From positions 1 through 64,000 of the forward strand of contig JAUHYW010000002.1 in NCBI GenBank assembly GCA_030426085.1: 64,000 bases of DNA, given 5' to 3'. The translations under genes and the position numbers were made by a program. Numbering within the stretch: position 1 is the first letter of the stretch; every line of letters starts with the position of its first letter. The notes beneath the pieces are model-generated. The model saw only the letters and a list, made by a program, of their open reading frames with translations, did no database searches and was not told the DNA's origin. This DNA comes from a bacterium (lineage in GTDB: Bacteria; Myxococcota_A; Bradymonadia; UBA7976; UBA1532). This document shows positions 3,973-46,173 of the stretch, in pieces.

Positions 3973-4980
3973 ATGCTCCCGGTGACTCGCACGTCCCGGG
4001 GGGTGCCCGTGCCGGATCAGCCGACCATCTTCGTCTCGGTGGCGTCTTACGCCGACCCCGACGTGGCCGCGACGCTGGCCGACGCCTTCGCCCGGGCCCG
4101 CCACCCCGAGCGGCTGTGGATCGGCGTCTGCGCCCAGGAGGATCCGGCCGATCCCGACTTCCTCGCCGACTACGCCGATCACCCCCAGGTGCGTATCCAC
4201 CGCATGCCGCACACCGAGGCCCGGGGGCCGATGCTCGCCCGCCACATCTGCGCCGGCCTGATCGAAGACGAGGACTTCTTCTTCCAGATCGACGCCCACA
4301 GCCGCTTCTTCCCCGACTGGGACGCCCACCTCGTCGACATGTACGCCGAGTGCGACACCGAGCGGGCGGTGATCAGCGGCTTCCCCCCCGCCATCAGCCA
4401 CATGGGCGACCCCAAGAAGCTGCGCCACATCGGCCACTGCGGCTTCCTGCGCGAGCTGAGCCCCCGCCGGGTCAAGATCGGCAGCGTCTCGATCCAGTTG
4501 CCCGAGCGCCCCCGCCCGGCGTTCTCGATCTCGGCGGCCAACATCTTCGGCCCCACCGCCTTCGTGCGCGAGGTGCCCATCGACCCCCACATGCCCTACG
4601 GCCTGCAGCACGCCGAGCAGTTCACCTGGGCCGTGCGGCTGTATACCCACGGCTGGGATCTGTTCACCCCCAACCGCCACACGGTGGCGACGGCCTACGC
4701 CAAGGGGCCTCGGGCGGCGCGTTACAACAAGGTGCACCCCGCGGCGAACCGGTGGCGCAAGCGGAGCTGGCACCGGGCGCAGCACATCCTCGGGCTCGGC
4801 CCGCTCGACGCGGTGCACCCCGACCTGCAACGCGAACTCGACGTCTACGGCCTCGGCGACGCGCGCACGGTGAGCGACTACTTCCGCTCGCTGGGCGCGC
4901 CCGACCTCGACACCATCCGGGAGAAGCTCGCCGAGGGCCTCTCGTGGGATCGCAAGGCGAAGGCATGGCTCGACGGGTGA
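3973..4980 (+). CDS. GT60-like glycosyltransferase (Skp1-type polypeptide GlcNAc-transferase family)
   Basis: 335 aa, soluble, no signal peptide. It opens with PTIFVSVASYADPDVAATLADAFARA and GVCAQED, then RGPMLARH, FFFQIDAHSRF with D107-A-H109 in the nucleotide-sugar/metal site, and a downstream ISAANIFGP / HAEQFTWAVRLYTHGWDLFTP block. This order matches the GlcNAc (GT60) family, whose characterised member adds GlcNAc to hydroxyproline of Skp1 in Dictyostelium. Acceptor and donor here are unknown. ATG 3973 is used; GTG codons at 4003 and 4009 are in-frame alternatives closer to the conserved core. It overlaps the next gene by 16 bases, indicating coupling. Confidence 0.78.
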   Translation: MLPVTRTSRGVPVPDQPTIFVSVASYADPDVAATLADAFARARHPERLWIGVCAQEDPADPDFLADYADHPQVRIHRMPHTEARGPMLARHICAGLIEDEDFFFQIDAHSRFFPDWDAHLVDMYAECDTERAVISGFPPAISHMGDPKKLRHIGHCGFLRELSPRRVKIGSVSIQLPERPRPAFSISAANIFGPTAFVREVPIDPHMPYGLQHAEQFTWAVRLYTHGWDLFTPNRHTVATAYAKGPRAARYNKVHPAANRWRKRSWHRAQHILGLGPLDAVHPDLQRELDVYGLGDARTVSDYFRSLGAPDLDTIREKLAEGLSWDRKAKAWLDG

Positions 4981-7856
4981 AGGCCGGGCCCCGCCCGGCA
5001 GACGACGGCCTCGACCTCGACGCCGCCCGCATCTTCGTGCGCATCCCGGCCTACCGCGACCCGGAGACGCTACCCACCCTCGAGCGGCTGTTCGAGCGGG
5101 CCGAGCGCCCCGAGCGGATCACGGTCGGCGTCTGCTGGCAGTACGGCCCCGACGAGGGCCCGCTGCCGGTCCCGATCCGCTACGCGGGGCGGGTGCGGGT
5201 GGTCGACGTGCCGGCCGAGGAGAGCCGGGGGCCGGCGTGGGCCCGCCACCGGGCCGAGGGGCTGCTGCGGGACGAAGACTTCGTGCTCGGGGTCGACGCG
5301 CACACCCAGCCGGCCATCGGCTGGGACGCCGCGCTGCTCGACACCTGGCGCCGGGCGGGCCCCCGGGCGGTGCTCTCGGCCCCCCCGGCGGGCTACAAGG
5401 CGCCCGACCTGCTGCGCAGCAACCCCCTGCCCGGCTATCGCCGCCCGCACCGGGTCGATCGGCGAGGGCTGCTCGAGCTGCGCACCGGCTTCTTCGACGG
5501 CTTCCCCGAGGCGCCGGTGCGGGGCGCGTTCGTCGTCAGCCGCTTCGTCTTCGCCCCGGCCGAGGCCATCCGGGCGGTGCCCTGCGACCCGGGGCTGTAC
5601 CTCGACGAAGAAGATCTCACCCTCTCGGTGCGGCTCTTCACCCACGGGTGGGACGTCTACGCCCCGGCCGATGTCTTCATGTGGCACCTGTACAACGACG
5701 ACGGCGAGCAGCGCCCGCTGCACTGGAAGGCATACGACGACTGGCGCAGCCTGCGCGCCGAAGCCCGCCGCCGGGCCCGCCGGCTGCTCGGGATCGAGCC
5801 GCTCAAGGCCCACGAGCAGCCCGACCCCGACGATCGCTACCGACTGGGTACGGCCCGCACCCTGGACGACTTCGCGGCGTTCTGTGGCTTCGACGTGCGC
5901 GCCGGCCGCCCGACCCCCGCCGCCGACCGCTGCCCGTGGGTCGAGGCGCTGCGCGAGGTGGCCTCGATCAACGGCTACTGGATCGCGCCCCCCGATCCGC
6001 CGCCGGCCCCGGCTCCGCCCCCGCCGCTGGCCCCCGGCGACTGCGCGCCGTACGTGACGCTGCCCCTGCCGAGCGGCAAGCGGGGCGAGCTGCACCTCTA
6101 CGCCGGGGCCCCGCTGGCGCTGTTCTTCGTACCGGCCGACGCCCCGGCCGCCGATCCGTTCGTGACGCTGCTCGCCGCGCGCAGCGAGCACTTCGAGGTC
6201 GCCGGGACCCGGGCGGTGATCGTGGGCGTGGGGCCCGGGGCCGAGCGCCTGTCGCGGCCGGGCGCGCCGCCGGTGTGGCTCGACGCCGACGGGGCAGTGG
6301 CCCGGGCGTTCGGGGCCGAGGGCGAGCGAGCCGTCCTGCTCGACCGCAACCTGCGGGTCGTCGACGTCGCCGCCGGGCTCAGCCAGGGTGTCATCGGGCG
6401 GATGGTCGACGGCGGCCGGGCCCTGCGCGACACCCACGACCGCGCGCCGCGCACGATCGCCCCCCACCCGCCGGTGCTGGTGGTGCCCGACGCCATCGAC
6501 GATGACTTGCGGATGGCCCTGATCGACGCCTGGCGGGCCGGGGAACACTTCCAGGGGCGCACCGGCTCGGGCCAGGGCTCCAAGGTGCGCCTCAACCGCA
6601 AGGTGCGCACCGACGTGCAGGTCGACAAGGCGCTGCGGGCCCGCATCGACGCGGCGCTCGTCGGCCGGCTGGCGCCCGAGATCGAGAAGGTCTTCGGCTT
6701 CCGCCCCACCCGCCGCGAGACCTACAAGGTCGGCTGCTACCCGGCCGACGGCGGCGGCTTCTTCGGCCAGCACCGGGACAACTTCGAGCCGGCCCTGGCC
6801 CACCGCCGGGTGGCGATGACCCTCAACCTGAACGCCGACTTCGAGGGCGGGCGGCTGGTCTTCCCCGAGTACGGCCCCGACGGCTACGCCCCGACGCCGG
6901 GCACGGCGGTGGTCTTCCCCTGCGCGCTGATGCACCGGGTCGATCCGGTGACGGCCGGGCTGCGGTTCACCCTGGTGTCGTTCTTCCACAACGAGGCCGG
7001 GGCCCGGCTGCGGCGCCAGATGCGGCGCACCGCCGGCCTGCCTCCGCCGAAGGACGACCGCCGGTTCATCGCCCCCCGCCGGGGCGTGGTGAGCCATCAC
7101 GAAGACATCCGCCATCGCTATGCCATGCTGCGCGACCCCGAGCACCCGCCGGCCCCCCAGCGCCCGGTGACGCTGGTCGAAGCCCGGGGCGCGGGCAACC
7201 CCGAGGTGGCCCGGCGGCGCACCGACACCCCGCCGGGGGTGCTGGTGGTCGACGACTACCTGCACCCCGACGCCTGCGAACGCATCACCCGCTACACGCT
7301 CGACGCGCCCGGCCGGCCGCTGCGGGTGCTCGACCACGACCGCTCCGATGGCGACACGCTGGTCATGCGGACGAGCGACAAGCGCATCACCGAGAAGGTG
7401 CGCATCGACGGCATCGCCCCCGAGATGCTGGCCCTGTTCACCGACGTCTATGGCCACCGGCTCGAGCCGTTCTACGGGGTCGAGTTCGAGTGGTTCGAGC
7501 GGCCCCAGATCCTGCGCTACGGGCCGGGTGGCAAGTACCACGCCCACGCCGACGCCGAGCATTACGACCGGGAGGCGAAGCGCTTCGTGCGGGCCCAGGA
7601 CCGGGACTACAGCGTGCTGGTCTACGTCAACGACGGCTACGAGGGCGGGGCGATCGCCTTCCCCCGGCTGGACTACGAGGTGCGCCCCGAGCCGGGCATG
7701 CTCATCGCCTTCCCCAGCGACCACCGCTTCGAGCACGCCGCCCGGCCGACGACCGCCGGCACCCGCATCGCCCTGGTGAGCTGGGGCGCGGTGCGGGGCA
7801 CCCCCCGGGTCCGCCCCCGGCCGCCCTATGGGGCGGTCATCTTCCGGCCGCGGTGA
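4965..7856 (+). CDS. Four-domain fusion: GT60-like transferase, peroxiredoxin-like domain, two prolyl-4-hydroxylase-type dioxygenase domains
   Basis: 963 aa, no signal peptide. Residues about 22-340 are a second GT60-like domain (IFVRIPAYRDPETLPTLERL, GVCWQYGP, D111-A-H113, a DEEDLTLSVRLFTHGWDVYAP block). After a Pro/Ala-rich linker, about 360-485 resemble an AhpC/TSA thioredoxin fold but lack an obvious peroxidatic cysteine. Residues about 495-690 are a 2OG-Fe(II) dioxygenase with H603-R-D605, distal H657 and 2OG-binding R667. Residues about 745-955 are a second one with H861-A-D863, H924 and R934. Both iron triads look intact, so hydroxylation of prolyl (or other) residues is plausible, followed by glycosylation by the transferase domain. 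The start at 4965 lies inside the preceding gene; the TTL-like gene follows after 2 bases. Confidence 0.8.
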   Translation: MARRVKAGPRPADDGLDLDAARIFVRIPAYRDPETLPTLERLFERAERPERITVGVCWQYGPDEGPLPVPIRYAGRVRVVDVPAEESRGPAWARHRAEGLLRDEDFVLGVDAHTQPAIGWDAALLDTWRRAGPRAVLSAPPAGYKAPDLLRSNPLPGYRRPHRVDRRGLLELRTGFFDGFPEAPVRGAFVVSRFVFAPAEAIRAVPCDPGLYLDEEDLTLSVRLFTHGWDVYAPADVFMWHLYNDDGEQRPLHWKAYDDWRSLRAEARRRARRLLGIEPLKAHEQPDPDDRYRLGTARTLDDFAAFCGFDVRAGRPTPAADRCPWVEALREVASINGYWIAPPDPPPAPAPPPPLAPGDCAPYVTLPLPSGKRGELHLYAGAPLALFFVPADAPAADPFVTLLAARSEHFEVAGTRAVIVGVGPGAERLSRPGAPPVWLDADGAVARAFGAEGERAVLLDRNLRVVDVAAGLSQGVIGRMVDGGRALRDTHDRAPRTIAPHPPVLVVPDAIDDDLRMALIDAWRAGEHFQGRTGSGQGSKVRLNRKVRTDVQVDKALRARIDAALVGRLAPEIEKVFGFRPTRRETYKVGCYPADGGGFFGQHRDNFEPALAHRRVAMTLNLNADFEGGRLVFPEYGPDGYAPTPGTAVVFPCALMHRVDPVTAGLRFTLVSFFHNEAGARLRRQMRRTAGLPPPKDDRRFIAPRRGVVSHHEDIRHRYAMLRDPEHPPAPQRPVTLVEARGAGNPEVARRRTDTPPGVLVVDDYLHPDACERITRYTLDAPGRPLRVLDHDRSDGDTLVMRTSDKRITEKVRIDGIAPEMLALFTDVYGHRLEPFYGVEFEWFERPQILRYGPGGKYHAHADAEHYDREAKRFVRAQDRDYSVLVYVNDGYEGGAIAFPRLDYEVRPEPGMLIAFPSDHRFEHAARPTTAGTRIALVSWGAVRGTPRVRPRPPYGAVIFRPR

Positions 7857-7858
7857 CC

Positions 7859-8776
7859 ATGGCCCGGACCTTCCACGTCAACCGCTCGAAGCTGCTCGTC
7901 GCCGCGCTCGAAGCCCGGGGCTGGGTCGCCGCCGAGGCCGACGCCGAGGCCGATCTGGCGATGTGGGACCCCTATCGCACCGCGCCCCGGCGGGGGCGAT
8001 TGCAGACACTCGAGCGGCGGGACGCCAACCGCATCGACGGCAAGCGCCCGCTGTTCACCGCCCTGCGCGCCGCCGGCGAGGCCGGCCTGATGCCCGACAC
8101 CTGGCTCGACCTCGAGCGCTGGCGCCGGGACGCCCCGAGCGGCGGGCCGTGGTACGTCAAGGCCAGCCACCTGTCGGGCGGACGAGGCATCGAGTGCGTG
8201 CCCGACGCCGATGGCATCGCCGCCGCGCTGGATGCCATCCGGGGCGCGTGTGTCATCCAGCGGGGGGTGGCCGATCCCATGCTGATCGACGGGCGCAAGG
8301 CCACCGTGCGGACCTACGTGCTGTGGCGGGGCGACGGGCGACACCTCGTCTTCGGCGAGTCGCTGTTCATCCTCCAGCCGAGGCCGTGGGATCCGGCCGA
8401 CCTCGACCCCGAGGTGCAGTTCCTGCACCGCAAGCCCGGCTACCGGTCGAGCGACGATCACCCGGGCTACCCCGCGCTGCACCGGCGCATCGCCGACGCC
8501 AGCCGGCGCACGCTCGCCGCCCTCGCCCCCCGCCTCGACGCCCGGGGCGACGCCGGCCGGTTCCAGCTCCTCGGCTTCGACTACCTGCCCGACGCCGGGG
8601 GCACCCCGTGGCTCATCGAGATCAACGCCTGGCCCAACTTCGGCTGGCGCGAGCGGGCGACGCAGCGGGCGGTCAAGCACCGCCTGATGACCGACTTCGC
8701 CCGGCTCGCCGAGGGCCTGCTCGACGGCGCGCCGCCCGACCTCGGCCGCTTCACGCCGCTCGACGGTGGATCGTAG
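7859..8776 (+). CDS. Tubulin-tyrosine-ligase-like ATP-grasp ligase
   Basis: 305 aa. Visible ATP-grasp features in order: WYVKASHLSGGRGIECV (ATP-contacting lysine and Gly-rich loop), LIDGRKATVRTYVLW (the TTL-type R-x-Y-V-L strand) and LLGFDYLPDAGGTPWLIEIN, with the D, E and N expected to bind Mg-ATP. TTL-family enzymes ligate an amino acid (Tyr, Glu or Gly) to a protein or peptide. The substrate here is unknown. It begins 2 bases after the dioxygenase-transferase fusion and is clearly in its operon, which suggests the same target protein or peptide. Identification as ATP-grasp is secure; the TTL subfamily call is by motif similarity. Confidence 0.75.
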   Translation: MARTFHVNRSKLLVAALEARGWVAAEADAEADLAMWDPYRTAPRRGRLQTLERRDANRIDGKRPLFTALRAAGEAGLMPDTWLDLERWRRDAPSGGPWYVKASHLSGGRGIECVPDADGIAAALDAIRGACVIQRGVADPMLIDGRKATVRTYVLWRGDGRHLVFGESLFILQPRPWDPADLDPEVQFLHRKPGYRSSDDHPGYPALHRRIADASRRTLAALAPRLDARGDAGRFQLLGFDYLPDAGGTPWLIEINAWPNFGWRERATQRAVKHRLMTDFARLAEGLLDGAPPDLGRFTPLDGGS

Positions 8777-8852: not shown

Positions 8853-10355
8853 ATGAGGCATGGGTTCCCGCTCTCAGCGCAGTTGGCGTCGCTGGCGCTG
8901 CTGACGCTCGCTCTGGTCGGCTGTGACGACGACGAGGCGAGCGCCGACCCGGCGGATGCCATGCGCGCCATGGACATGACTCCGGTCGCGATGGACATGA
9001 CATCCGACGGAGACGCCGCCCGCGACATGGCACCTGCGGGTGACGCGATCCCGGACGCGGCGCCCGACATGGCGCCCGAGGTGGACTACGACATCCCGCC
9101 GCCGCCCGAGCTGCCGCCGCCCGGCGCGTGTGACGACTCGCAGCTCCCGGCGGTGATGGCTCATGGCTTCCTGGCGGCGGGCGATACGTGGTCGGCGCAC
9201 GTGCAGCGCTTCGCGGCCAACGGGCACTGCGTCGATCGCTACCACGCCTTCGACTGGAACACGCTGGTGATGGATCCCGCGCCGCACGTCGAGGCGCTCG
9301 ACGCCTTCATCGACGCGGTCCGGGCGCAGCACGGGGTCGAGCAGGTCGACCTGATGGGGCACTCGGCGGGCGGGCGGCTGGGGTATGCCTACCTGGCCGA
9401 TCCGGCGCGGGCGGCGAAGGTGCGGGCCTACGTGCACACGGCGAGCTTCCCCGAGGAGGCGCCCCCGACGCCCGAGGGCGCCGGGACCCGCACGCTGAAC
9501 CTGTGGTCCGACGCCGACTTCGCGGTGGAGGGGGCCGACATCCCGGGGGTGGAGAACGTCACCCTCGAGGGGGTCGACCACTACGCGGTGGCGACGGCGG
9601 CCGAGGCGTTCTCCACCGTCTACGGGTTCTTGTACGGCGCGCCGCCGGCCACCACCGACCGGGCGCCGGCCGAGATCCCGGTGGTCGAGGGGCGGGTGCT
9701 CACCCTGGGCGAGAATCGGATCGAGGTGGGGGCGGTGGTCGACGTGTGGCCGCTCGATCCGGCGACGGGGCAGCGGGCGGGCCCGGCGCCCCGGGCCCGG
9801 TTCGTGACCGACGAGGCCGGGCGCTGGGGGCCGTTCGCCGCCGAGCGCGAGGTGCCCTACGAGCTGCACGTGCGGCCGGCGGGCGACGGGCGGCCGGTGC
9901 GCTTCTATCGGCCGCCGTTCGCCGGGGACGACCCGCTGCTGTACCTGCGCACGCTGCCCGGGCCGGGATCGACGGCGGGGCTGATCCTGACCCAGATCGA
10001 CTTCGGGGCCGAGGGCACGGTGATGGTGGTCTTCTCGTCGACCCGGGCGATCGAGTTCGGGGTGGACGATCTGCGCGTCGACGGGGCATCGGTGCTGACC
10101 GCCGCGCTGGCCCCGCCGGAAGAGACCCTGATCGCGCTGTTCGTCTACGACCAGGGCGGGGACGGCATGCCCGGGCGCACCAACCCGATCTTCGAGCAGT
10201 TCCCCTTCCTGCAGATGCTCGACCTGCCCATCGGGGCCGACCCGGCGGCGAGCGTCGAGGTGCGGCTGGGCGATCAGGTGGTGCGCATGCCCCGCTGGCC
10301 GGCCGATCCCGAGGGGGCGATCATCGCGATCTTCGATCCGACGGAGCAGCGATAG
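8853..10355 (+). CDS. Lipoprotein alpha/beta-hydrolase (lipase-like)
   Basis: 500 aa. The ATG at 8853 follows an AGGAGG sequence. Signal peptide with lipobox LVGC (C24), then an Asp/Ala/Met/Pro-rich tether (about 25-95, runs such as DMAPD). The hydrolase domain begins at LPAVMAHGF (oxyanion-hole side) and has the nucleophile elbow GHSAGG and a candidate catalytic His in GVDHYAV. The C-terminal 220 residues look like beta-rich domains of unknown role. It is probably anchored in the outer membrane and acts on esters outside the cell. The reading frame could extend upstream, but only this start gives a signal peptide. It sits downstream of the TTL-like gene with a 76-bp gap, so it may or may not share that transcript. 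Confidence 0.82.
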   Translation: MRHGFPLSAQLASLALLTLALVGCDDDEASADPADAMRAMDMTPVAMDMTSDGDAARDMAPAGDAIPDAAPDMAPEVDYDIPPPPELPPPGACDDSQLPAVMAHGFLAAGDTWSAHVQRFAANGHCVDRYHAFDWNTLVMDPAPHVEALDAFIDAVRAQHGVEQVDLMGHSAGGRLGYAYLADPARAAKVRAYVHTASFPEEAPPTPEGAGTRTLNLWSDADFAVEGADIPGVENVTLEGVDHYAVATAAEAFSTVYGFLYGAPPATTDRAPAEIPVVEGRVLTLGENRIEVGAVVDVWPLDPATGQRAGPAPRARFVTDEAGRWGPFAAEREVPYELHVRPAGDGRPVRFYRPPFAGDDPLLYLRTLPGPGSTAGLILTQIDFGAEGTVMVVFSSTRAIEFGVDDLRVDGASVLTAALAPPEETLIALFVYDQGGDGMPGRTNPIFEQFPFLQMLDLPIGADPAASVEVRLGDQVVRMPRWPADPEGAIIAIFDPTEQR

Positions 10356-10441
10356 CCGGGCGTGGTGGCCGGGCTTGACAGCGGGCGGCGGGCGGCGAAG
10401 ACTGCCCGACTCGACCTCGTGCTCCGGCTCCGGGAGGCCCC

Positions 10442-11404
10442 ATGGCCCGTCGCTCTCTCTCCGGTGTGCAGCCGTCCGGTCTGCTGCACCTCGGCAACTA
10501 CTTCGGCGCGATCCGCACCCACGTCGCCCGGCAGGACGACGCGTATTACTTCATCGCCGACTTCCACGCGCTGACCACCACCCACGACCCGGCGGTGCTG
10601 CGGCAGAACGTGTTCGACGTGGCGGCGACCTACCTCGCCCTGGGGCTCGACCCCGAGCGGGCGGTCCTGTGGCGGCAGTCGGACGTGCCCGAGGTGCAGG
10701 AGCTGGCCTGGCTGCTGGCGACGGTGACCGGCATGGGGCTGCTCGAGCGGGCCCACAGCTACAAGGACAAGGTCGAGCGCGGCATCTCGGCGTCGGTGGG
10801 GCTCTTCTACTACCCGGTGCTGATGGCGGCCGACATCCTGGCGTTCGACAGCGACGTGGTGCCGGTGGGCAAGGATCAGGTGCAGCACCTCGAGATGACC
10901 CGGGACATGGCGCAGTCTTTCAATGCGCGCTACGGGGAGGTCTTCAAGCTGCCCAAGGTCGAGCTGGGCGTGCCCGAGCCGGTGCCCGGCATCGACGGGG
11001 CGAAGATGTCGAAGAGCTACGACAACCACATCCCGATCTTCCCGGCGAGCCGCAAGGCGCTGAAGAAGCGGGTGATGGCGATCAAGACCGACTCGACCCC
11101 GATGGAGGATCCCAAGGATCCCGACACCTGCACGGTCTTCGCGCTGTATGCCCTGTTCGCCGACGCGGCGCAGCAGGCCGAGATGCGGGCGAAGTACGCC
11201 GGGGGCGACTACGGGTACGGGCACGCCAAGCTGGAGCTGCTCGAGCTGATCGAGGCGCACTTCGCCGACGCCCGGACGCGGTACGCCGAGTTCGAGAAGC
11301 ACCCCGACCGGGTCGAGGAGATCCTGCGGGCCGGCGCCGAGCGGGCGCGGCCGGTGGCCCGGGCGGTGCTGGACCGGGCCCGGGCGGCGTGTGGTCTGGC
11401 CTGA
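10442..11404 (+). CDS. trpS: Tryptophanyl-tRNA synthetase
   Basis: 320 aa, normal for bacterial TrpRS. Class-I signatures: P11-SGLLHLGNYFGA (HIGH-type, 16-19) and A187-KMSKS192. Other conserved blocks include IADFHALTT, YPVLMAADIL and PVGKDQVQHLEMTRD. It charges tRNA-Trp in the cytoplasm. The ATG at 10442 is preceded by a GGGAGG-like sequence. It converges on infA. Confidence 0.98.
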   Translation: MARRSLSGVQPSGLLHLGNYFGAIRTHVARQDDAYYFIADFHALTTTHDPAVLRQNVFDVAATYLALGLDPERAVLWRQSDVPEVQELAWLLATVTGMGLLERAHSYKDKVERGISASVGLFYYPVLMAADILAFDSDVVPVGKDQVQHLEMTRDMAQSFNARYGEVFKLPKVELGVPEPVPGIDGAKMSKSYDNHIPIFPASRKALKKRVMAIKTDSTPMEDPKDPDTCTVFALYALFADAAQQAEMRAKYAGGDYGYGHAKLELLELIEAHFADARTRYAEFEKHPDRVEEILRAGAERARPVARAVLDRARAACGLA

Positions 11405-11421
11405 GCGGCCGGGTCGGCCGC
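11405..11421. terminator. Hairpin between convergent trpS and infA
   Basis: GCGGCC-gggtc-GGCCGC: a 6-bp perfect GC stem with a 5-base loop, directly after the trpS stop and just beyond the infA stop. There is no T tract on either side, so it is a candidate bidirectional terminator only. Confidence 0.4.
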
Positions 11422-11427
11422 CTCGAC

Positions 11428-11649
11428 TCAGCGGGCGCGGAACGTGATCCGGCCCCGGGTGAGGTCGTAGGGCGAGACCTCGAGGGTGACCTTGTCCCCG
11501 GGCAGGATGCGGATGAAGTACTTGCGCATCTTGCCGGAGACATGGGCCAGGACCGGCTCGGGCAGCTCCGGGACCTCGACCTTGAACATCGCGTTGGGCA
11601 GCGGCTCGAGGACCTTGCCTTCGAACGTCAGCGCTTCTTCCTTGGGCAA
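11428..11649 (-). CDS. infA: Translation initiation factor IF-1, TTG start
   Basis: 73 aa, the family's usual length. The sequence [18 protein letters not shown], then [20 protein letters not shown] and [13 protein letters not shown] is diagnostic of the IF-1 S1/OB fold. The conserved N-terminus (x-K-E-E) begins directly after a TTG at 11649, with GGAG nine bases upstream, so TTG is chosen as start. The frame continues upstream, but that extension is Arg/Gly-rich and unlike IF-1. IF-1 binds the 30S A site during initiation. The gene stands alone between trpS (convergent) and the gcdH cluster. Confidence 0.95.
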
Positions 11650-11811
11650 CTTGGGCTCTCCAGATTGAGCGAATGGCGTGCGGCCGCCACCCCGGCGGGG
11701 TGCTTCACGGCCGCCATGCGTTGCGCAGTTTAGCGGTGCGGGCGGCTTTCGCAACCCCCATCGCCCGGTCGACGCCGTTTGTTCACGGGTCGGGGGGCGC
11801 CGGGCGGGCCC

Positions 11812-12993
11812 TCAGGTGAACGCGTTGTGCCCGGTCAGCGCCCGGCCGATGGCCAGGGTGTGCACCTCATGGGTGCCCTCGTAGGTGTAGACGCTCTCGA
11901 GGTTGGCCATGTGCCGCATGATGGGATACTCGGCCATGATGCCGTTGCCCCCGAGGATGCCCCGGGCGGTGCGGGCGATGTCGAGCGCGGCGCCGACGTT
12001 CTCCCGCTTGGCGAGGCTGACCTGGATCGGGCTGAGCCGGCCGGCGTCCTTGAGCGTCGCGAGGTGCTGGCTGAGCAGGTGGCCCTTGACGATGGTGGCG
12101 CCCATCTCGACCAGCTTCTGCTGAGTGAGCTGGAAGCCGGCGATGGGCCGGCCGAACTGCACCCGCTCCCGACTGTAGGCCAGCGCGGCGTCGTAGCAGG
12201 CGAGCGCCGCGCCCAGCGCGCCCCACGAGATGCCGTAGCGGGCCTGGGTCAAGCACGACAGCGGGCCCTTGAGCCCCTGCACCCCGGGCAGCACGTTGGC
12301 CTCGGGCACGAAGCAGTCTTCGAGCACGATCTCGCCGGTCCACGAGGCGCGCAGGCTCATCTTGTCCCGCATCTTGGGGGTCGAGAAGCCCTCGAACCCG
12401 CGCTCGACGAGGAACCCGCGGATGGTCTTCGCGTCGCCGTCGTCGACCTTGGCCCAGACGATGGCCACCCCGGCGATGGGGGCGTTGGTGATCCACATCT
12501 TGGCCCCGTCGAGCACCCACCCGCCGTCGGCCTTGCGGGCCCGGGTGCGCATCGAGCCGGGGTCGCTGCCGCTGTCGGGCTCGGTGAGGCCGAAGCAGCC
12601 GATCAGCTCGCCGGTGGCCATCCGGGGCAGGAAGCGCTGCTTCTGCGCGTCGCTGCCGAACCTCCAGATGGGGTACATGCACAGCGCGCCCTGCACGCTC
12701 GCGAAGCTGCGCAGGCCGCTGTCGACGTACTCCAGCTCGCGCATGATCAGGCCGTAGGCGGTGGCGTCGAGGCCGGCGCAGCCGTAGCCGGTGAGGTTCG
12801 CCCCGAGCACCCCGAGCTCGCCGATGGCCGGGATCAGGTCGTCGGGGAAGGTCTCGTCGAGGTAGCACCGGGCGACCCGCGGTTCGAAGACCTCCCGGCT
12901 GAAGGCGCGCACCGCGTCGCGCACCATGCGCTGCTCTTCGGTCCATATCGACTCGACGGCGAAGAGGTCGAGCAGGGGCGTGGGGTCGCTCAT
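11812..12993 (-). CDS. gcdH: Glutaryl-CoA dehydrogenase-like acyl-CoA dehydrogenase
   Basis: 393 aa, normal for GCDH. FAD/substrate motifs CFGLTEPDSGSDPGSM and WITNAP are visible. The ARYGISWGALGAA segment and YTYEGTHEVH, which carries the catalytic glutamate, are characteristic of the glutaryl-CoA dehydrogenase subgroup. It would oxidatively decarboxylate glutaryl-CoA to crotonyl-CoA, a step in lysine/tryptophan and anaerobic aromatic degradation. Its start overlaps the stop of the creatininase-family gene by 4 bases, and a benzoate-CoA-ligase-like gene precedes both. This supports an aromatic or dicarboxylate catabolic operon. Confidence 0.88.
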   Translation of the reverse strand: MSDPTPLLDLFAVESIWTEEQRMVRDAVRAFSREVFEPRVARCYLDETFPDDLIPAIGELGVLGANLTGYGCAGLDATAYGLIMRELEYVDSGLRSFASVQGALCMYPIWRFGSDAQKQRFLPRMATGELIGCFGLTEPDSGSDPGSMRTRARKADGGWVLDGAKMWITNAPIAGVAIVWAKVDDGDAKTIRGFLVERGFEGFSTPKMRDKMSLRASWTGEIVLEDCFVPEANVLPGVQGLKGPLSCLTQARYGISWGALGAALACYDAALAYSRERVQFGRPIAGFQLTQQKLVEMGATIVKGHLLSQHLATLKDAGRLSPIQVSLAKRENVGAALDIARTARGILGGNGIMAEYPIMRHMANLESVYTYEGTHEVHTLAIGRALTGHNAFT

Positions 12994-13877
12994 CGGGCGG
13001 GATCTCCGGGTCGTCCGGTGGGGTCACCGGGGCGCTCGGCCGATCGGTCCGGGGTCTCGATGGACTCGGCGGCCGGGCGCTCGGTGGATTGCTCGGCGCG
13101 CTCGCCGGGGCGCTGCGCCAACGCTTCGAGCACCTCGGTGGCGACCATCTCGGCGAGCACGGCGTAGAGCAGGTCGCCTTCGGTCGGATCGGCGGCGGCG
13201 GGGTCGCCGGTGTAGGCCCGGTGCATGCCGGCGTCGACGAAGCGATCGGTCCCGGCGGCGATGGCCTTGCTCAGGCTGATGTCGAGCGGCGGCAGGCCCC
13301 GGGCGGTCTGCATGTCGACCTGCTCGGGCGCGGTGGCCAGCATCAACGAGCCTTCGTAGCGCCCGGCGTGACACGCCCCGCTCTTGAACTCGGCCCCGAG
13401 GCGGCTGCCCCAGCGGCGGTCGGTGACCTTGGCCGCCGAGACGGTGTGCGGCCCGTAGGCCCCGCCGATCGCCTCGCAGGCGGCGTCGAGCGCTTCGAAC
13501 TGGCCCGGCTCGAGGTGGTGGTTGACCAGCGCGACGTGGGCGAAGCCGTCGTCGAGGAACCGGGCGGCGCCCCCGGCGATGACCGCGACGAGGGCCTCAG
13601 CGGGGATCGAGATCGCGCCGGGGAAGCCTTCGGCGAAGTCGGTGACCCCGTAGGGCAGGCTGGGGGCGACGACGGCGAACAGGCCGGCGGCCCGCAGCCG
13701 CAGCGCCGCCCGGCGGGCGTTCTCTTCGGCGAGCAGGGTGTCGGTGGCGAGCGGCAGGTGCGGCCCGTGGGGCTCGACGCTGCCGACGGGCCACACCACC
13801 ACCGCGTCGTCGGCCGCGGCGAGCGCCTCGGCGAGCGTGGTCGTGGTGTAGCGGGCCAGTTCGAGCGGTCGGCTCAT
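12990..13877 (-). CDS. Creatininase-family amidohydrolase
   Basis: 295 aa. Motifs: VVVWPVGSVEPHGPHLPLATDT (the E-x-H-G-x-H-L-P-x-x-T-D metal-site signature), PYGVTDFAEGFPGAISI, LVNHHLEPGQ in place of the usual N-x-H-x-G-N, and a conserved E in YEGSLML. The family are Mn/Zn amidohydrolases; members outside creatininase act on varied amides, and the substrate here is unknown. The last 40 or so residues are a Pro/Glu/Arg-rich tail not found in typical members. ATG 13877 is preferred over ATG 13883 because GCGAGG lies at proper spacing. Its stop overlaps the gcdH start. Confidence 0.82.
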   Translation of the reverse strand: MSRPLELARYTTTTLAEALAAADDAVVVWPVGSVEPHGPHLPLATDTLLAEENARRAALRLRAAGLFAVVAPSLPYGVTDFAEGFPGAISIPAEALVAVIAGGAARFLDDGFAHVALVNHHLEPGQFEALDAACEAIGGAYGPHTVSAAKVTDRRWGSRLGAEFKSGACHAGRYEGSLMLATAPEQVDMQTARGLPPLDISLSKAIAAGTDRFVDAGMHRAYTGDPAAADPTEGDLLYAVLAEMVATEVLEALAQRPGERAEQSTERPAAESIETPDRSAERPGDPTGRPGDPAR

Positions 13878-13914
13878 ATGCATCCTCGCGTCGCCTGTGG
13901 CGCAAGCGCCCCCA

Positions 13915-15486
13915 TCAATCGCGCGGCAGCCGCTTCTTGTCCACCTTGCCCCGGTCGTTACGAGGCAGTGACTCGACGAAGACGACCTCCCGGGGATATT
14001 TGTACCGCGCCAGCCGGGTCCGGACCCAATCCTTCAGGGCCTCGGCCAGCGCCTCCGATCCGACCTCGCGGCTCTCGACGACTGCCCGGGTCGACATCAG
14101 CCCCTCGCGCTCGACCCCGATCACCGCCGCCTCGACCACCGCCGGGTGCTCGGCGAGGCAGTGCTCGATCTCGAGCGGGCTGACCCACTGCCCGCTGACC
14201 TTGAGCAGGTGATCGGCCCGGCCGCGGAACCAGTAGTAGCCGTCCGCGTCGACCCGGAACAGATCCCCGGTGCGGCACCAGTGGCCGTGGAAGGTCTTCC
14301 AGCTCTTGTCGCGGTCGAGCCAGTAGCCCAGCGCCACGCTGTCGCCCTTGATCCACAGCACCCCGTCCTCGCCGACCGGCACCGGCTCGGCCCCCGGACC
14401 CTCGGCATCGGCCGGCAGGATCCGGGCCTCGTAGCCCTCGACGATGCGGCCGAGTGAGCCCGGCTTCACGTCGCCGGGGCGGTTGGTGATGTAGATGTGA
14501 AACATCTCGGCGCTGCCGATGCCGTCGTAGACCGGCACGTCCCACCGGGCGGACCACCGGTCGAGCAGCGCCGGAGGCAGCGCCTCGCCGGCCGACAGCG
14601 TCCACTTCAGGCTCGACAGGTCGATGGGCGAGCGGGCGTCGGCCTCGAGCAGCCGCGACATGAGCGTCGGCACGTTGGTCAGCGCGGTGGCCCGATAGTG
14701 CTCGACGGCCCACGCGATGCGATCGGCGGTGGGCTTCTCGACGAAGAGCCCGCACGAGGCGCCGACCGCGAAGGGGAACATCAGGTTGGTGCCGGTGGCG
14801 TAGCCGAAGAACAGCCGGGGCACGCTGACGCAGACGTCGTCCTCGTGGTAGCCGATGGTGTCCTTGGCGTAGACCTCGGTGTTGAACGCGAAGTCGCGGT
14901 GGCAGTGCATCGCCGCCTTGGGCCGGCCGGTGCTGCCGCTGGTGAACAGCCAGATGGCGGGGGCATCCCGCCGGGTGGGCTCGACGGACCCCGGGGCGCA
15001 GCCGGCGATGCGGGTGGCGAGGCAGCGGGGGTCGGACAGCTTCGCCTCGGGGTCGTCGAAGGTGCCGCCGTCGGGCACCACGAGCACCTCGGCCTTGGGC
15101 GCGTCGCCCCAGGCAGCGTCGAGCCGGGCGGCGACCTCGGCGGTGGTGACCACGACCCGGGGGCGCACGTAGTCGACGACGTGGTCCAGATCGGCGGTCT
15201 TCGTGAGCGGGTTGCCCATCGCGACGACCGCCCCCGCGCCGAGGGTGCCGAAGAAGGCCCAGGCGAAGGGCGGGGTGTCGGGCAGAACGATGTAGACCCG
15301 CTCCTCGGGGCGCAGGCCCAGCCCGCGCAGGGCGGTGATCGTGCGCCGGGTGCGGTCGGCCACCTCGGCGTAGGTCCAGGTGCGGTCGCCGAAGCGCAGG
15401 GCGATCCGCCCGCCGCGGCCCTCGGCGATACGCTCGAAGAGGTAGTAGTCGGCGAGGTTGAGCGGGTCGGGCAGGGCGGGGCTCAT
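13915..15486 (-). CDS. Benzoate-CoA ligase-family acyl-CoA synthetase
   Basis: 523 aa ANL-superfamily adenylating enzyme. Visible motifs: WLFTSGSTGRPKAAMH (P-loop, A3), YDGIGSAEMFHIY (A5), YWFRGRADHLLKVSGQWVSPLEIE (A8 hinge) and a C-terminal NDRGKVDKKRL with the catalytic lysine (A10). The NLADYYLFERIAEGRGGRIAL N-terminus and overall length match the benzoate/4-hydroxybenzoate-CoA ligase group. It would activate an aromatic acid to its CoA ester. It is the first gene of a three-gene minus-strand cluster with the creatininase-family protein and glutaryl-CoA dehydrogenase. Exact substrate unproven. Confidence 0.85.
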   Translation of the reverse strand: MSPALPDPLNLADYYLFERIAEGRGGRIALRFGDRTWTYAEVADRTRRTITALRGLGLRPEERVYIVLPDTPPFAWAFFGTLGAGAVVAMGNPLTKTADLDHVVDYVRPRVVVTTAEVAARLDAAWGDAPKAEVLVVPDGGTFDDPEAKLSDPRCLATRIAGCAPGSVEPTRRDAPAIWLFTSGSTGRPKAAMHCHRDFAFNTEVYAKDTIGYHEDDVCVSVPRLFFGYATGTNLMFPFAVGASCGLFVEKPTADRIAWAVEHYRATALTNVPTLMSRLLEADARSPIDLSSLKWTLSAGEALPPALLDRWSARWDVPVYDGIGSAEMFHIYITNRPGDVKPGSLGRIVEGYEARILPADAEGPGAEPVPVGEDGVLWIKGDSVALGYWLDRDKSWKTFHGHWCRTGDLFRVDADGYYWFRGRADHLLKVSGQWVSPLEIEHCLAEHPAVVEAAVIGVEREGLMSTRAVVESREVGSEALAEALKDWVRTRLARYKYPREVVFVESLPRNDRGKVDKKRLPRD

Positions 15487-15634
15487 CGGCAGCTCCCTCG
15501 GTGGCGTCGTCGTTGACGGGGTACGATGTCGGGCGACCCGCCGTCAATCACCGCGGGCGGGCACCGTTTGACAGGACCCCGGGCCGGTGCGAGATTGCCG
15601 CGGTCGGGCCACCGCCCGGGGGAAGGAGCCGCCC

Positions 15635-17116
15635 ATGGAGTTCAACTGCCCACAGTGCAATACACCCCACGCGTTCCCCGACGATCAGATCCCCGAGGCG
15701 GGCATCGTCGTCGCCTGCACCCATTGCGAGTCGCACATCACGCTCGACCGCAACGGCGTCCGGGGTGAGGATCCGACCGAGGCGATCGAGATGGTCAAGG
15801 CCGACGCCCCGGCCGCGGCCCCGGCTCCGCCCGCCGCGCCCCCCGGGCCGCCCGCCTCGGCGCCGCCCCCGCCGACGCCGACGCCGACCCCGACCCCGAC
15901 CCCCGCGCCGCCGGGGAGCTGGCCCCAGCCGGGTCCGGCCCCCGCGCCCCAGAGCGGCTGGCCTCAGCCGGGGCCGTCCCCCGCCCCGGGCCCCAGCCTG
16001 GAGAAACCCGCCGCGCCGGCCGACGCGCCGGACGACAGCGTCGGCAACCGCCTCTCATCGGCGTTCGGCTCGGCCATGGGCGCCGCCTCGCGGGCCTTCG
16101 ACGACGCCGCCGGCGAAGAGATGGCCGCCGAGGACGACGTGCCCGAGGGGCTGCGCTTCCCCGGCTTCGCGCCGGGCGACGCGGGGCCGTGGACCTGGCG
16201 CGATCTGCCGCGGGCGTTCGTGGGCCTGCTCGACGTGCGCCGGGTGGCGTTCACCGCGGTGGGCCTGTGGCTGGCGCTGGTCGCCTTCCTGCTCGTCAAG
16301 TGGCTGGGCAGCAAGATCGGATTCCTGACCACCGTGCTCGACGTGGTCGCCTGGGCCTTGCTCATCGTCGGCTTCGCCCTGGTCACCGCGGTGATGTCCT
16401 TCGTATGCCACCAGACGGTCATCGAGCGGCGCGCGTCGTCGATCAAGGCCGGGGTGGGCTGGGTCAAGAGCTGGATCAAGAGCGTCGCGGGCACCCCGCT
16501 GGCGTTCGCCGGGGTCATCGCCGGAGCGGTGCTGATCGAGGCGCTGCTGGGGCTGGTGGGGCGCATCCCGGTCGTGGGACCGATCGTGTGGGGGCTGACC
16601 AGCCCGGTGACGGTGCTGCTCAGCGTGGCCAGCGGGCTGGTCGCGGTGGCCCTGGTCTACAGCCTGCCGCTGTACGTGCCGGTCATCTACAACGAGAAGA
16701 CCGGGCCCGCCGAGACCCTCAAGCGCCTGCTCTCGCTCTTCCGGGGCCACGGGCTGCGGCTGGTGGGGCACCTGATGCTGTCGGCGCTCATGATCGGGCT
16801 GGCGGTCGCGGTCACCCTGGCGCCCGCCCTGCGGCTGGGGCGGACCTTCACCGACAACGCGGTGGCCAACGCGATGGGCGACAACCTCGGCGGGCTGTTC
16901 GTCAAGGCCCCGGGCGTCTTCCAGGGGCCGCTCGTGGCGCTGGTGACCCCCGCCGGCGCCCCGGCCGATCCCGGCTTCGGGCACACCCTGGGCGGCATCC
17001 TAGGCGGGATCGGCAGCGCGCTGCTGCCGGCGCTGGTGCTGGCGGTGGTCGTGCTCGTGCAGTACACCGCCGGCTGCATCATCTACAGCATCGTCACGGG
17101 CCGGCAGAAGGTCTGA
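15635..17116 (+). CDS. Zinc-ribbon membrane protein with Pro-rich linker
   Basis: 493 aa. N-terminal MJ0042-type zinc ribbon (FNCPQCNTPHAFPDDQIPEAG, then ACTHCESH: two CxxC pairs, residues 5-32). Residues about 55-145 are an Ala/Pro/Thr linker with a TPTPTPTP run. The C-terminal half (about 195-490) has six or more hydrophobic segments, so the ribbon probably faces the cytoplasm from a membrane domain. The ATG at 15635 has GGAAGGAG upstream. Function unknown; such ribbon-linker-membrane architectures are frequent in myxobacteria. It is probably transcribed alone. Confidence 0.75.
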   Translation: MEFNCPQCNTPHAFPDDQIPEAGIVVACTHCESHITLDRNGVRGEDPTEAIEMVKADAPAAAPAPPAAPPGPPASAPPPPTPTPTPTPTPAPPGSWPQPGPAPAPQSGWPQPGPSPAPGPSLEKPAAPADAPDDSVGNRLSSAFGSAMGAASRAFDDAAGEEMAAEDDVPEGLRFPGFAPGDAGPWTWRDLPRAFVGLLDVRRVAFTAVGLWLALVAFLLVKWLGSKIGFLTTVLDVVAWALLIVGFALVTAVMSFVCHQTVIERRASSIKAGVGWVKSWIKSVAGTPLAFAGVIAGAVLIEALLGLVGRIPVVGPIVWGLTSPVTVLLSVASGLVAVALVYSLPLYVPVIYNEKTGPAETLKRLLSLFRGHGLRLVGHLMLSALMIGLAVAVTLAPALRLGRTFTDNAVANAMGDNLGGLFVKAPGVFQGPLVALVTPAGAPADPGFGHTLGGILGGIGSALLPALVLAVVVLVQYTAGCIIYSIVTGRQKV

Positions 17117-29712: not shown

Positions 29713-30513
29713 CTACCCGTCGAACACCGTCACGAGCTGCTCCTCGATGGCCGCCAGCCGGCCGTCGGGGCCGTAGATCTCGCCCCGGGCGGCCACATGC
29801 CCCGCCGCCGCCTGCTCGACGACCCCCCGAAAACCCCAGAACGCGTCCGGATCGACCGCCTCGGGCACCTCGGCGAAGGTGGTCGACCAGAAGACCGAGC
29901 TGGCCGGCACCGGCCGATCGGCGAGGCACAGGATCGGGCTGGGCCACGCGTCGAACAGCGCGAGCAGCACCGCGTGCGGCGAGACCCCGGCGGCGCCCCG
30001 CAGGCGCACGTAGCCCTCGATCACCGCGTCCTCGCCCCCGCTGAACGGCAGATCGGGCGAGGCGTAGCGGAAGTCGCAGTGCTGCACGAAGCGGGGCATC
30101 ACCCCCTCGATGTAGGGCAGGGCGGGCAGCGACTCGGGCGGGGGCAGCGCCGGCCCCGGGCGGGGATCGACGACCAGCTTCGACGGCCGGGCGGCGCCCA
30201 GGGCGGCGGTGATCTGAGCCCGCACCGCGTCGCCCTGCACCACCTCGGCCCGGGCGTGGGTGAAGGCCCGCCCCGCGCGCAGCCGGGTCGTGCGGACGTG
30301 CACCGGCCCCGGAGCCACCGGACCGATGAAGGCGGTGTGCACCGACCGCGGCAGCCGCGCGGGCTCGACCCCCCGCCGCAGCGCCTCGAGGCCCAGCGCG
30401 GCCACCAGCCCCCCGAAGGCGGCCCGGCCCTGCATCCAGTCGGGGTCGATCTCAGTGGTCCAGGCGCCGTCGTCGGCGGGCTCCAGGCGCAGGACATCGG
30501 CGAAGTCGATCAT
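29713..30513 (-). CDS. Acyl-CoA thioesterase, TesB-like
   Basis: 266 aa, double-hotdog architecture. The N-terminal half has DPDWMQGRAAFGGLVAALGLEAL and PRSVHTAFIGPVAPGPVHVRTTRLRAGRAFTHARAEVVQGD, the usual TesB-type helix and strands. The C-terminal half has SPHAVLLALFDAWPSP and SSVFWSTTFAE. It would hydrolyse acyl-CoAs; chain-length preference is unknown. Closest to the 4HBT_3 group of thioesterases. Monocistronic, divergent from the lipoprotein at 30638. Confidence 0.8.
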   Translation of the reverse strand: MIDFADVLRLEPADDGAWTTEIDPDWMQGRAAFGGLVAALGLEALRRGVEPARLPRSVHTAFIGPVAPGPVHVRTTRLRAGRAFTHARAEVVQGDAVRAQITAALGAARPSKLVVDPRPGPALPPPESLPALPYIEGVMPRFVQHCDFRYASPDLPFSGGEDAVIEGYVRLRGAAGVSPHAVLLALFDAWPSPILCLADRPVPASSVFWSTTFAEVPEAVDPDAFWGFRGVVEQAAAGHVAARGEIYGPDGRLAAIEEQLVTVFDG

Positions 30514-30637
30514 GGGCCCGCTCCACGGGGATGACGAGGTGTGCCCGACCAGATGCCCCAGCGGCGGCGCGCGTCTCGCGCTTGCGTCGGTCGACCGCTT
30601 CGGAGAACGTCAGCCACATCGGCCGGGGGAGTACACC

Positions 30638-32224
30638 GTGGCGAAGTGGAGATCGAGCGCGCTGACGCTGAGCGTGCTGCTCGGGGCGGCGGGCTGCATC
30701 GACGTGCCGGTGCGCCACGACGGCGCAGACGGCGACGGCGTGACCCCGGACGCGGCCGACGACGCGCGGACGGAACCCGGGGACGCCGGCCGGGACGCGG
30801 CGGACGGGCCCACGGATGGACCCCCGATCGACCGCCCGCGGCCCGATCGCGGGCTGCCCGACGGCGACGCCCCCGACCTCGGCCCGCCCGACGACCCCGA
30901 CCCCGACATCGGCCCGCCCCCCGACGGCGCCGTCGACCTCCCGCTCCTGACGCTGTACGTCGACGAAGACCGGATCGACGGGCGCACCCACCGCCGCCCC
31001 CCGACCGAGGTCGGCGGGCAGGACACCTTCGAAGTCCGGCTCGTCAACCCCAGCGGGGTGCGCCTCGTCATCCGCGAAGGCCCCGCGCTGGAGGGCCGGC
31101 GAGGGGTGGGCTTCCGGGCGACCCCGATGGACGAGTTCGTGATCGAGCCGATGAGCGAGCTGGCCTTCCCCCTGACCTTCGATCCGATCGCGCCGGGCCC
31201 GGTCGAGGCCGAGGTGAGCTTCCACGCCGCCACCGGCTTCGTGACCTCGGCCCGGCTGAGCGGCGTGGGCTACGCCCCGGTGCACGCCGCCGTGGGGCCC
31301 ACCGGCGCGGTCGGGGTCACCCCCGATCTGGCCATGCACTGGTGGCTGGACGCGCTCGACGCCCCGCCGCTGGCCGGCGCGCTCGACGTCGCCTGCGGCG
31401 GGACCTGCCGGGCCCCGGGCGACCCCGCCGGCGCCTCCGACGCGGCGTGCGTGCTCGTGGCCACCACCGCCGACGGCGCGGTGGCCCGCTACACCCGGGA
31501 CGGCGACCGGTGGGACGACGTGGTCTTCGACGGCGACCCCGGCGGCTTGATCGCGGTGGACCACGGCCCGCCGTGGATCGCGCTCGGGCGGGACGGCCGC
31601 CTGTGGCGCTCGGACGACGGCGCCCGCTGGGCGGCGGTGAGCGACGCCCGGCGGGACGTGCAGCCGCTCGACGTGGCGGTGAACGCGGCCGGCGACGTGG
31701 TCTGGCTGGGCAGCGACGGGCTGGTGGTCCATGTGCCGGCCGGAGGCCCGATCGGGGTGATCCCCACCGACGACGACGTCGAGCTGCTGCGGGTGGCCGA
31801 CGCCGGCCGGCAGTTCCTCGCGGTGGGCGAGCGCGGCCGGACCCTGCGCATCGACGGGCCCGCGCAGACCGGGAGCGGACGACTGGCGGCCATGCCGCTG
31901 GTCCGCGAGGTGGGCCACGGCCCCTTCCCCCGGGCGCGGCAGTGGGTCGCGGCCACCGACACCGGGCTGCACACCTCCCCCGACGGGGTCGACTGGGTGT
32001 TCGACCTGAACACGGACGCCGTGCACGCCTTCGCGCTCGGCGACCGGGGGCTGGTAGGCGGCCAGGTCCAGGCCGACCAGGAGACGGTGGTGGCCTTGCC
32101 GGTCGACGGCGTCGCCCTCGAGCCCCGCGTCCCGCCGGCCGCGTTCTCCCGCTTCGCCGCCGGCCGGCTGTGCGCCCGGGCCGACCGGGAGCCGGTCGCG
32201 CCGGTGCGGATCGAGGCGCCCTGA
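30638..32224 (+). CDS. Tethered lipoprotein with beta-propeller-like domain
   Basis: 528 aa from GTG 30638 (GGGGGAG upstream; this start gives a proper signal peptide, lipobox GAAGC, C20). A long Asp/Pro/Gly-rich tether (about 21-105) is followed by an Ig-like beta domain (FEVRLVNPSGVRLVI, LAFPLTFDPIAPGPVEAEVSF). Residues about 240-510 have repeating strands with W and G-D-G turns (IALGRDGRLWRSDDGARWAAV, WVAATDTGLHTSPDGVDW), like a BNR or sialidase-type propeller. Surface-exposed, function unknown. Confidence 0.7.
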   Translation: MAKWRSSALTLSVLLGAAGCIDVPVRHDGADGDGVTPDAADDARTEPGDAGRDAADGPTDGPPIDRPRPDRGLPDGDAPDLGPPDDPDPDIGPPPDGAVDLPLLTLYVDEDRIDGRTHRRPPTEVGGQDTFEVRLVNPSGVRLVIREGPALEGRRGVGFRATPMDEFVIEPMSELAFPLTFDPIAPGPVEAEVSFHAATGFVTSARLSGVGYAPVHAAVGPTGAVGVTPDLAMHWWLDALDAPPLAGALDVACGGTCRAPGDPAGASDAACVLVATTADGAVARYTRDGDRWDDVVFDGDPGGLIAVDHGPPWIALGRDGRLWRSDDGARWAAVSDARRDVQPLDVAVNAAGDVVWLGSDGLVVHVPAGGPIGVIPTDDDVELLRVADAGRQFLAVGERGRTLRIDGPAQTGSGRLAAMPLVREVGHGPFPRARQWVAATDTGLHTSPDGVDWVFDLNTDAVHAFALGDRGLVGGQVQADQETVVALPVDGVALEPRVPPAAFSRFAAGRLCARADREPVAPVRIEAP

Positions 32225-46057: not shown

Positions 46058-46173
46058 GGCGGCCGCGCGGAGACAGCGCGCAACCCGGGCGGGCCTCGGC
46101 GGTTGTCGCCGACGAGCGCTGCGGCGGCCGACGCGGTACAGTCGCGGCCATCCGCCCGGCCCGAGGAGTGTGC

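Follow-up and report, generated by a model that had tools for sequence, protein, structure and literature searches.

Protein glycosylation coupled to hydroxylation is so far known from eukaryotes, where it acts on Skp1 and on plant cell-wall proteins. In the Skp1 pathway of Dictyostelium and Toxoplasma, a cytosolic 2-oxoglutarate (2OG)-dependent prolyl hydroxylase, PhyA, is coupled to Gnt1, a polypeptide GlcNAc-transferase of family GT60. Skp1 itself is a eukaryotic protein and is absent from bacteria. Toxoplasma Gnt1 requires the hydroxyproline made by PhyA (PMC6939170), while GT60 enzymes of T. cruzi glycosylate Thr of mucin-like proteins (PMC9472816). The latter (TcOGNT, which attaches alpha-GlcNAc) and the GalNAc-transferases of GT27 are eukaryotic systems without a coupled hydroxylase, and TcOGNT1 is located in the Golgi. 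Bacteria have 2OG oxygenases such as Pseudomonas PPHD, the Bacillus anthracis prolyl 4-hydroxylase (P4H) and the PKHD-type proteins PiuC and YbiX, all of which stand alone, without GT60.

Here we describe a locus on a DNA stretch of 64,000 nucleotides (the window) from an uncultured bacterium. Its central gene fusion, which recurs in distant bacteria, suggests that the hydroxylate-then-glycosylate pathway known from amoebae has a bacterial counterpart, as yet undescribed, with a putative target. Like the Skp1 pathway, the locus pairs GT60 with prolyl hydroxylase-type domains, but here GT60 is joined to two hydroxylases and a dead redoxin in a single polypeptide, a second GT60-family protein and a tubulin-tyrosine ligase (TTL)-like enzyme are added, and the bacterial neighbours are adhesins and lipoproteins. 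We found no description of GT60 with bacterial hydroxylases or TTL in the literature, which is weak evidence of absence given that open-licence papers only were covered.

Gene layout and domains of the cassette

The cassette is surrounded by housekeeping genes. Its features are as follows.

3973..4980, + strand: gene A, GT60a, a stand-alone GT60-family protein (PF11397; ORF, Pfam)
4965..7856, + strand: gene B, a 963-aa fusion of GT60b, redoxin-like, PKHD-type 2OG and P4H-type 2OG domains (ORF, Pfam, NCBIfam)
5016..5969, + strand: GT60b domain of the fusion, aa 18-335 (DxH and C-His present)
5982..6029, + strand: proline-rich linker PPDPPPAPAPPPPLAP leading from GT60b to the redoxin domain (sequence)
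6021..6434, + strand: redoxin/AhpC-TSA-like domain of the fusion, aa 353-490 (Pfam, predicted fold)
6432..7034, + strand: OG1, 2OG-Fe(II) oxygenase 1, aa 490-690, PKHD/PiuC type, H603/D605/H657
7197..7853, + strand: OG2, 2OG-Fe(II) oxygenase 2, aa 745-963, P4H type, H861/D863/H924
7859..8776, + strand: gene C, TTL-like ATP-grasp ligase (Pfam, residue alignment)
8853..10355, + strand: gene D, lipase-like lipoprotein with lipobox, Pro-rich linker, alpha/beta hydrolase and Lipase_C

Genes A, B and C are co-oriented. Gene B, whose ATG lies at 4965, overlaps gene A by 16 bp, gene C follows after 2 bp and gene D after a further 76 bp, so that the coordinates of the first three reading frames and both close junctions given in the earlier note were reproduced. 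Its family calls were likewise upheld by Pfam: GT60 in gene A (E=3.5e-53) and gene B (7e-52), with 181.7 and 177.5 bits against a curated cut-off of 21, 2OG-FeII_Oxy_3 in gene B (2e-29) and TTL in gene C (5e-15, 55.9 bits against 20.1). In the fusion, the GT60 and two hydroxylase domains that it listed are present; the redoxin-like domain had been overlooked. The Pfam scores, together with orthologues 69-74% identical and under purifying selection, rule out chance or artefactual reading frames.

The DxH metal motif is kept in both GT60a and GT60b, as in nearly all of the 196 GT60 domains compared (D in 193, H in 195). A C-terminal metal histidine has been described for GT27, a family related to GT60 (PMC7185993), and His occupies that place in GT60b and in 193/196 domains. 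In GT60a it is replaced by Thr, as in the GT60a orthologue, and GT60a reads AEQ where nearly all GT60 domains read GEE. Loss of this histidine, which is compensable in other GT-A families (PMC7185993), makes inactivity or altered activity of GT60a possible. With a branch of 1.87 in the GT60 tree, GT60a is too long-branched to be placed, and its dN/dS of 0.27 is the lowest in the cassette. From its sequence, GT60a may be a pseudoenzyme, or a transferase that is altered yet under selection. We class it simply as a member of the GT60 family whose activity is doubtful, a predicted transferase at most; the earlier count of two transferases does not hold as worded, the active site of one being degenerate.

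The structure model of GT60a (pLDDT 84) has a predicted GT-A fold resembling the polypeptide GalNAc-transferases of GT27, the first 41 PDB matches of a fold search all being GalNAc-transferases, and the sole match of the GT60 profile among PDB sequences is TgGalNAc-T3. As the top fold matches are all enzymes of this kind, the model supports a polypeptide acceptor for GT60. The cassette shares with TcOGNT and GT27 the GT60 family, the DxH motif and the GT27-like predicted fold. GT60b clusters with redoxin-adjacent GT60 domains of Alphaproteobacteria (SH-aLRT 94), in a clade that is not exclusive. GT60 is a prokaryote-plus-protist family (PMC7185993) with plentiful bacterial members in our scan of GTDB contigs, and the description of the cassette as eukaryote-style is not supported as worded.

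The redoxin/AhpC-TSA domain of the fusion scores 0.0018 with Pfam in the window, 1e-4 in the sister genome and 1e-11 in a distant homologue. It has no Cys, and the peroxidatic one is likewise absent in the fusion homologues; with a predicted fold like that of the thioredoxin ResA, this makes a docking or spacer role without catalysis likely. Stand-alone redoxin-2OG fusions occur at L264:4053-5237 and L265:6805-7884, in genomes with and without GT60, and their redoxin seems to be likewise non-catalytic.

Both Fe(II) triads are intact, exactly as first listed (H603/D605/H657 in OG1 and H861/D863/H924 in OG2), with Arg (R667) at the 2OG-binding place of OG1 and R934 as the basic residue for 2OG in OG2. 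OG1 is assigned to the PKHD/YbiX group by NCBIfam. The nearest solved relatives in a PDB sequence search are PiuC for OG1 and P4HA2 and bacterial P4H for OG2; the fusion's oxygenases belong to the same groups as the stand-alone bacterial enzymes. PhyA is absent from these matches, the P4H-type domain matching collagen-type and bacterial P4H instead in this search. A fold search with the fusion model returned PiuC, P. putida P4H with EF-Tu, PHD2 and ResA; only the redoxin and OG1 domains are well modelled (full-length pTM 0.35), and PHD2 appears only in this search of a low-confidence multi-domain model.

Gene C aligns with tubulin-tyrosine ligase across the ATP-grasp core, sharing its conserved catalytic residues (K101, R151, D241, E254 and N256 are intact), but it is bacterial, without tubulin. 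When its partners were sought across phages, plasmids, viral contigs and the phylum, full-length matches came from the two congeners only, and the ligase is found alongside GT60 in this one genus only.

GT60-hydroxylase fusions and Pro/Thr-rich neighbours in other bacteria

A scan of GTDB contigs with the GT60 alignment yielded 174 relatives, of which 80 were kept; the same scan with the whole fusion as query gave no match. Fusions of related design are found in two Rickettsiales MAGs (L055, L061) and an alphaproteobacterium (L059), with two to four GT60 copies followed by redoxin, OG1 and another 2OG domain, the L061 and L059 genes being cut by contig ends. Further variants are GT60x3-redoxin at a contig end (L073), GT60-redoxin beside a P4H (L053), GT60-P4H beside another GT60 (L091), and GT60-redoxin facing a P4H-GT60 gene pair (L263, from the same genome as L054, which encodes a stand-alone redoxin-2OG protein elsewhere). 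In one alphaproteobacterial order about 10/263 genomes encode multi-GT60 redoxin-2OG-type proteins of 1313-2456 aa, several of them cut by contig ends. A divergent sulfotransferase gene (PF13469) is present in all nine multi-GT60 loci with readable upstream DNA, Pfam-confirmed in four. The loci L055, L061, L073, L112, L294, L295 and L297-L299 encode giant proteins of the form GT60x3-5-redoxin-2OG(-2OG) alongside a divergent Sulfotransfer_3 gene, and the complete ones, within the one order, have conserved downstream synteny.

The recurrence of GT60-hydroxylase fusions in unrelated bacteria, among them GT60(x1-4)-redoxin-2OG fusions in alphaproteobacterial MAGs, indicates that the link between the two is not due to chance and supports a functional one. 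Of the pathway proposed there, the coupling of hydroxylation with glycosylation is supported; the part assigned to the ligase is weak, TTL being found with GT60 in a single genus. GT60 also occurs in other company. G224, a genome of the same taxonomic family as the window's (L044, L045), encodes three proteins of 708-937 aa that join GT60 to a methyltransferase, L047 and L048, from the same phylum, are GT60-HtrL_YibB fusions, and viral contigs (L132-L211) contain at least 236 stretches encoding GT60.

Genes for Pro/Thr-rich surface proteins tend to lie beside GT60. Counted over 82 GT60 loci among L053-L131 and L294-L303, they make up 14/135 of directly adjoining genes against 4/418 of those three or more genes away (p=1.9e-6, an optimistic value because the loci are not all independent and include several Oxalobacteraceae, Gallionellales and Rhodospirillaceae pairs, though many families are represented). 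By rank, the share with Pro/Thr repeats falls from 16/150 at rank 1 to about 1% at ranks 4-5. The repeats include TTEPP, PTDTPA, PTVT, PPVTTE and APTE, some in RTX- or TPS-type adhesins, and at several loci the contig breaks inside the neighbour's repeat. This arrangement fits the activity of T. cruzi GT60 on mucin Thr (PMC9472816), and from these gene neighbours we propose that bacterial GT60 enzymes generally may have Thr/Pro-rich, mucin-like acceptors. As most GT60 genes beside Pro/Thr repeats lack a hydroxylase, hydroxylation is not needed for GT60 action generally.

Beyond the genus, the closest P4H domain found to that of the fusion belongs to a GT60-P4H fusion in genome G395 (P4H 52% identical over 209 aa, GT60 39%). 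Within L300:3-6384 this gene shares a strand with genes for an FhaC/ShlB transporter and for a TpsA adhesin with a (PTPEPTPEPT)n tail, inside which the contig ends. A glycosyltransferase beside an FhaC-like transporter and a TpsA adhesin presumably resembles the HMW1/HMWC type of cytoplasmic glycosylation, which acts on two-partner-secretion adhesins and from which L300 differs in its GT family and its fused prolyl hydroxylase, and the window's genome in having no TPS domain. Of the matches to PTPEPTPE repeats, the seven in G395 all lie in the L300 adhesin and a single one in G432 is unrelated; the window's genome has none, and no Thr/Pro-repeat adhesin lies beside its cassette. A TPS adhesin was rejected as acceptor in the window's genome, where no TPS domain was found, and so were collagen-like repeats and flagellin, no motif for either being present in 129 GT60 loci.

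The sister genome and local acceptor candidates

Among 58 relatives, all parts of the cassette are present in two genomes only, that of the window and its congener G209. The four products have G209 homologues 69-74% identical with dN/dS of 0.27-0.51, indicating that genes A-D are real and under selection. The fusion has a full-length homologue (74%), GT60a a sister gene at L043:9023-10078 (73%) and the ligase one next to GT60a (69%). The earlier note had expected the three genes to be kept together in another genome, and this is not borne out: G209 splits them into two conserved pairs, GT60a with TTL on contig 98 and fusion with lipase on contig 15, so that the order in the window interleaves them (A-B-C-D against AC and BD). 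At synonymous sites GT60a and TTL (dS 0.75 and 0.74) have diverged twice as far as the fusion gene (0.38), which implies pairs with partly different histories. From TrpS onward, window positions 10374-17116 are collinear with G209 at 81%. This collinearity stops exactly at the cassette end (10355-10374), the cassette lying elsewhere in G209. With the set split in this way and the ligase accompanying GT60 in one genus, the claim that the three genes act on one target is not sustained.

The lipase lipoprotein (8853-10355), which directly follows the three genes in the window and adjoins the fusion gene in the sister genome, has the linker PDAAPDMAPEVDYDIPPPPELPPPG, rich in D, M, A and P with little Thr, and is a possible acceptor of the cassette. 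D/A/M/P-rich linkers after the lipobox are common to the secreted lipoproteins at 8853-10355, 30260-32224, 45889-47952 and 50165-51649. These lipoproteins are a possible acceptor class and, the lipase included, would be the best local candidates.

Proposed mechanism, alternatives and significance

From domain content, intact residues, fold, the recurrent fusion, purifying selection and the adjacency of GT60 to Pro/Thr-rich proteins, we infer a chemistry, an order of steps, an acceptor and a role for the ligase. We predict, with about even confidence, a cytoplasmic protein-modifying machine in which the fusion hydroxylates and glycosylates Pro-rich exported proteins and GT60a and TTL form an accessory pair. 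The two O2- and 2OG-dependent domains of the fusion would hydroxylate side chains, most likely prolines, and GT60b would add the first sugar, by GT60 precedent alpha-GlcNAc or similar, to the same Pro/Thr-rich stretch, the catalytically dead redoxin serving as docking or spacer module. Most likely the acceptors would be proteins bound for export, carrying the modification in their Pro-rich linkers or repeats before they leave the cytoplasm. In the window the candidates are lipoproteins, among them the lipase next door, and in other bacteria (P/T)n-repeat adhesins. GT60a and the TTL-like ligase would make up another pair, separable from the first, which probably has a helper role or attaches an amino acid to targets of this class. 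The sugar may be accepted by hydroxyproline, as on Skp1 (PMC6939170), or by Thr/Ser. Against the proposal speak the absence of a Thr/Pro-repeat adhesin beside the cassette and of a TPS adhesin from the genome, the low Thr content of the lipase linker and the presence of similar linkers in other lipoproteins of the window, the poor model of the fusion outside the redoxin and OG1 domains, and the many GT60 loci with Pro/Thr repeats but no hydroxylase.

The two activities could instead run in parallel, GT60b acting on Thr/Ser and the oxygenases on other residues of the same exported protein, with hydroxyproline not the sugar acceptor. The GT60-adjacent repeat proteins are mostly Thr-rich (TTEPP, PTVT, APTE) in loci without a hydroxylase, and T. 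cruzi GT60 acts on Thr (PMC9472816), but the repeated direct fusion of GT60 to P4H or PKHD domains suggests sequential use and the L300 and L053 repeats are Pro-saturated; we regard parallel modification as rather unlikely. It is more doubtful still that the cassette senses oxygen, as with Skp1, by modifying a single specific cytosolic protein such as a translation factor, although the fold search likens the fusion to PHD2 and to the EF-Tu prolyl hydroxylase of P. putida, PPHD hydroxylates EF-Tu (PMC4543633) and the genes are set among housekeeping genes. The two to five GT60 domains found in one protein, the adhesins next door and the sulfotransferases agree better with bulk decoration of exports, and no conserved cytosolic partner was seen. 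Least probable, and improbable indeed, is a product other than protein, with the cassette building or decorating a small molecule, a peptide natural product or a glycan. ATP-grasp ligases are known from peptide biosynthesis, and in other bacterial proteins GT60 is joined to a methyltransferase, HtrL/YibB or capsule-type domain; beside the cassette, however, there are no genes for scaffold building, for export or for a precursor, and the P4H/PKHD and GT60/GT27 precedents work on polypeptides.

A further possibility, compatible with the other readings and in our view less likely than not, is that the three-gene arrangement is incidental, the GT60a-TTL and fusion-lipase pairs having been joined by rearrangement. 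The separate contigs in G209, the doubled dS of GT60a and TTL, and the exact coincidence of cassette end and synteny breakpoint all favour this, while the 16-bp overlap and 2-bp gap between co-oriented genes, the presence of all genes in the same two genomes and the interleaved order, not to be expected if two loci had simply been joined, speak against it.

The reading of the fusion as a hydroxylating and glycosylating enzyme of exported proteins can be extended, in what we consider an unlikely but consequential form, to single giant O2-dependent bacterial enzymes making hydroxyproline-linked surface glycoproteins like plant extensins and arabinogalactan proteins, sulfated in some lineages and here possibly amino-acid-ligated, from which the protist PhyA/Gnt1 pair would be derived. 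The Pro/Thr-repeat neighbours provide concrete acceptor candidates for bacterial GT60 enzymes. If the proposal is true, it would offer one-protein tools for producing hydroxyproline glycoproteins and a hint at the origin of the protist pathway, and bacteria would gain an oxygen-dependent, extensin- or mucin-like surface chemistry, in a one-polypeptide version recurring across phyla.
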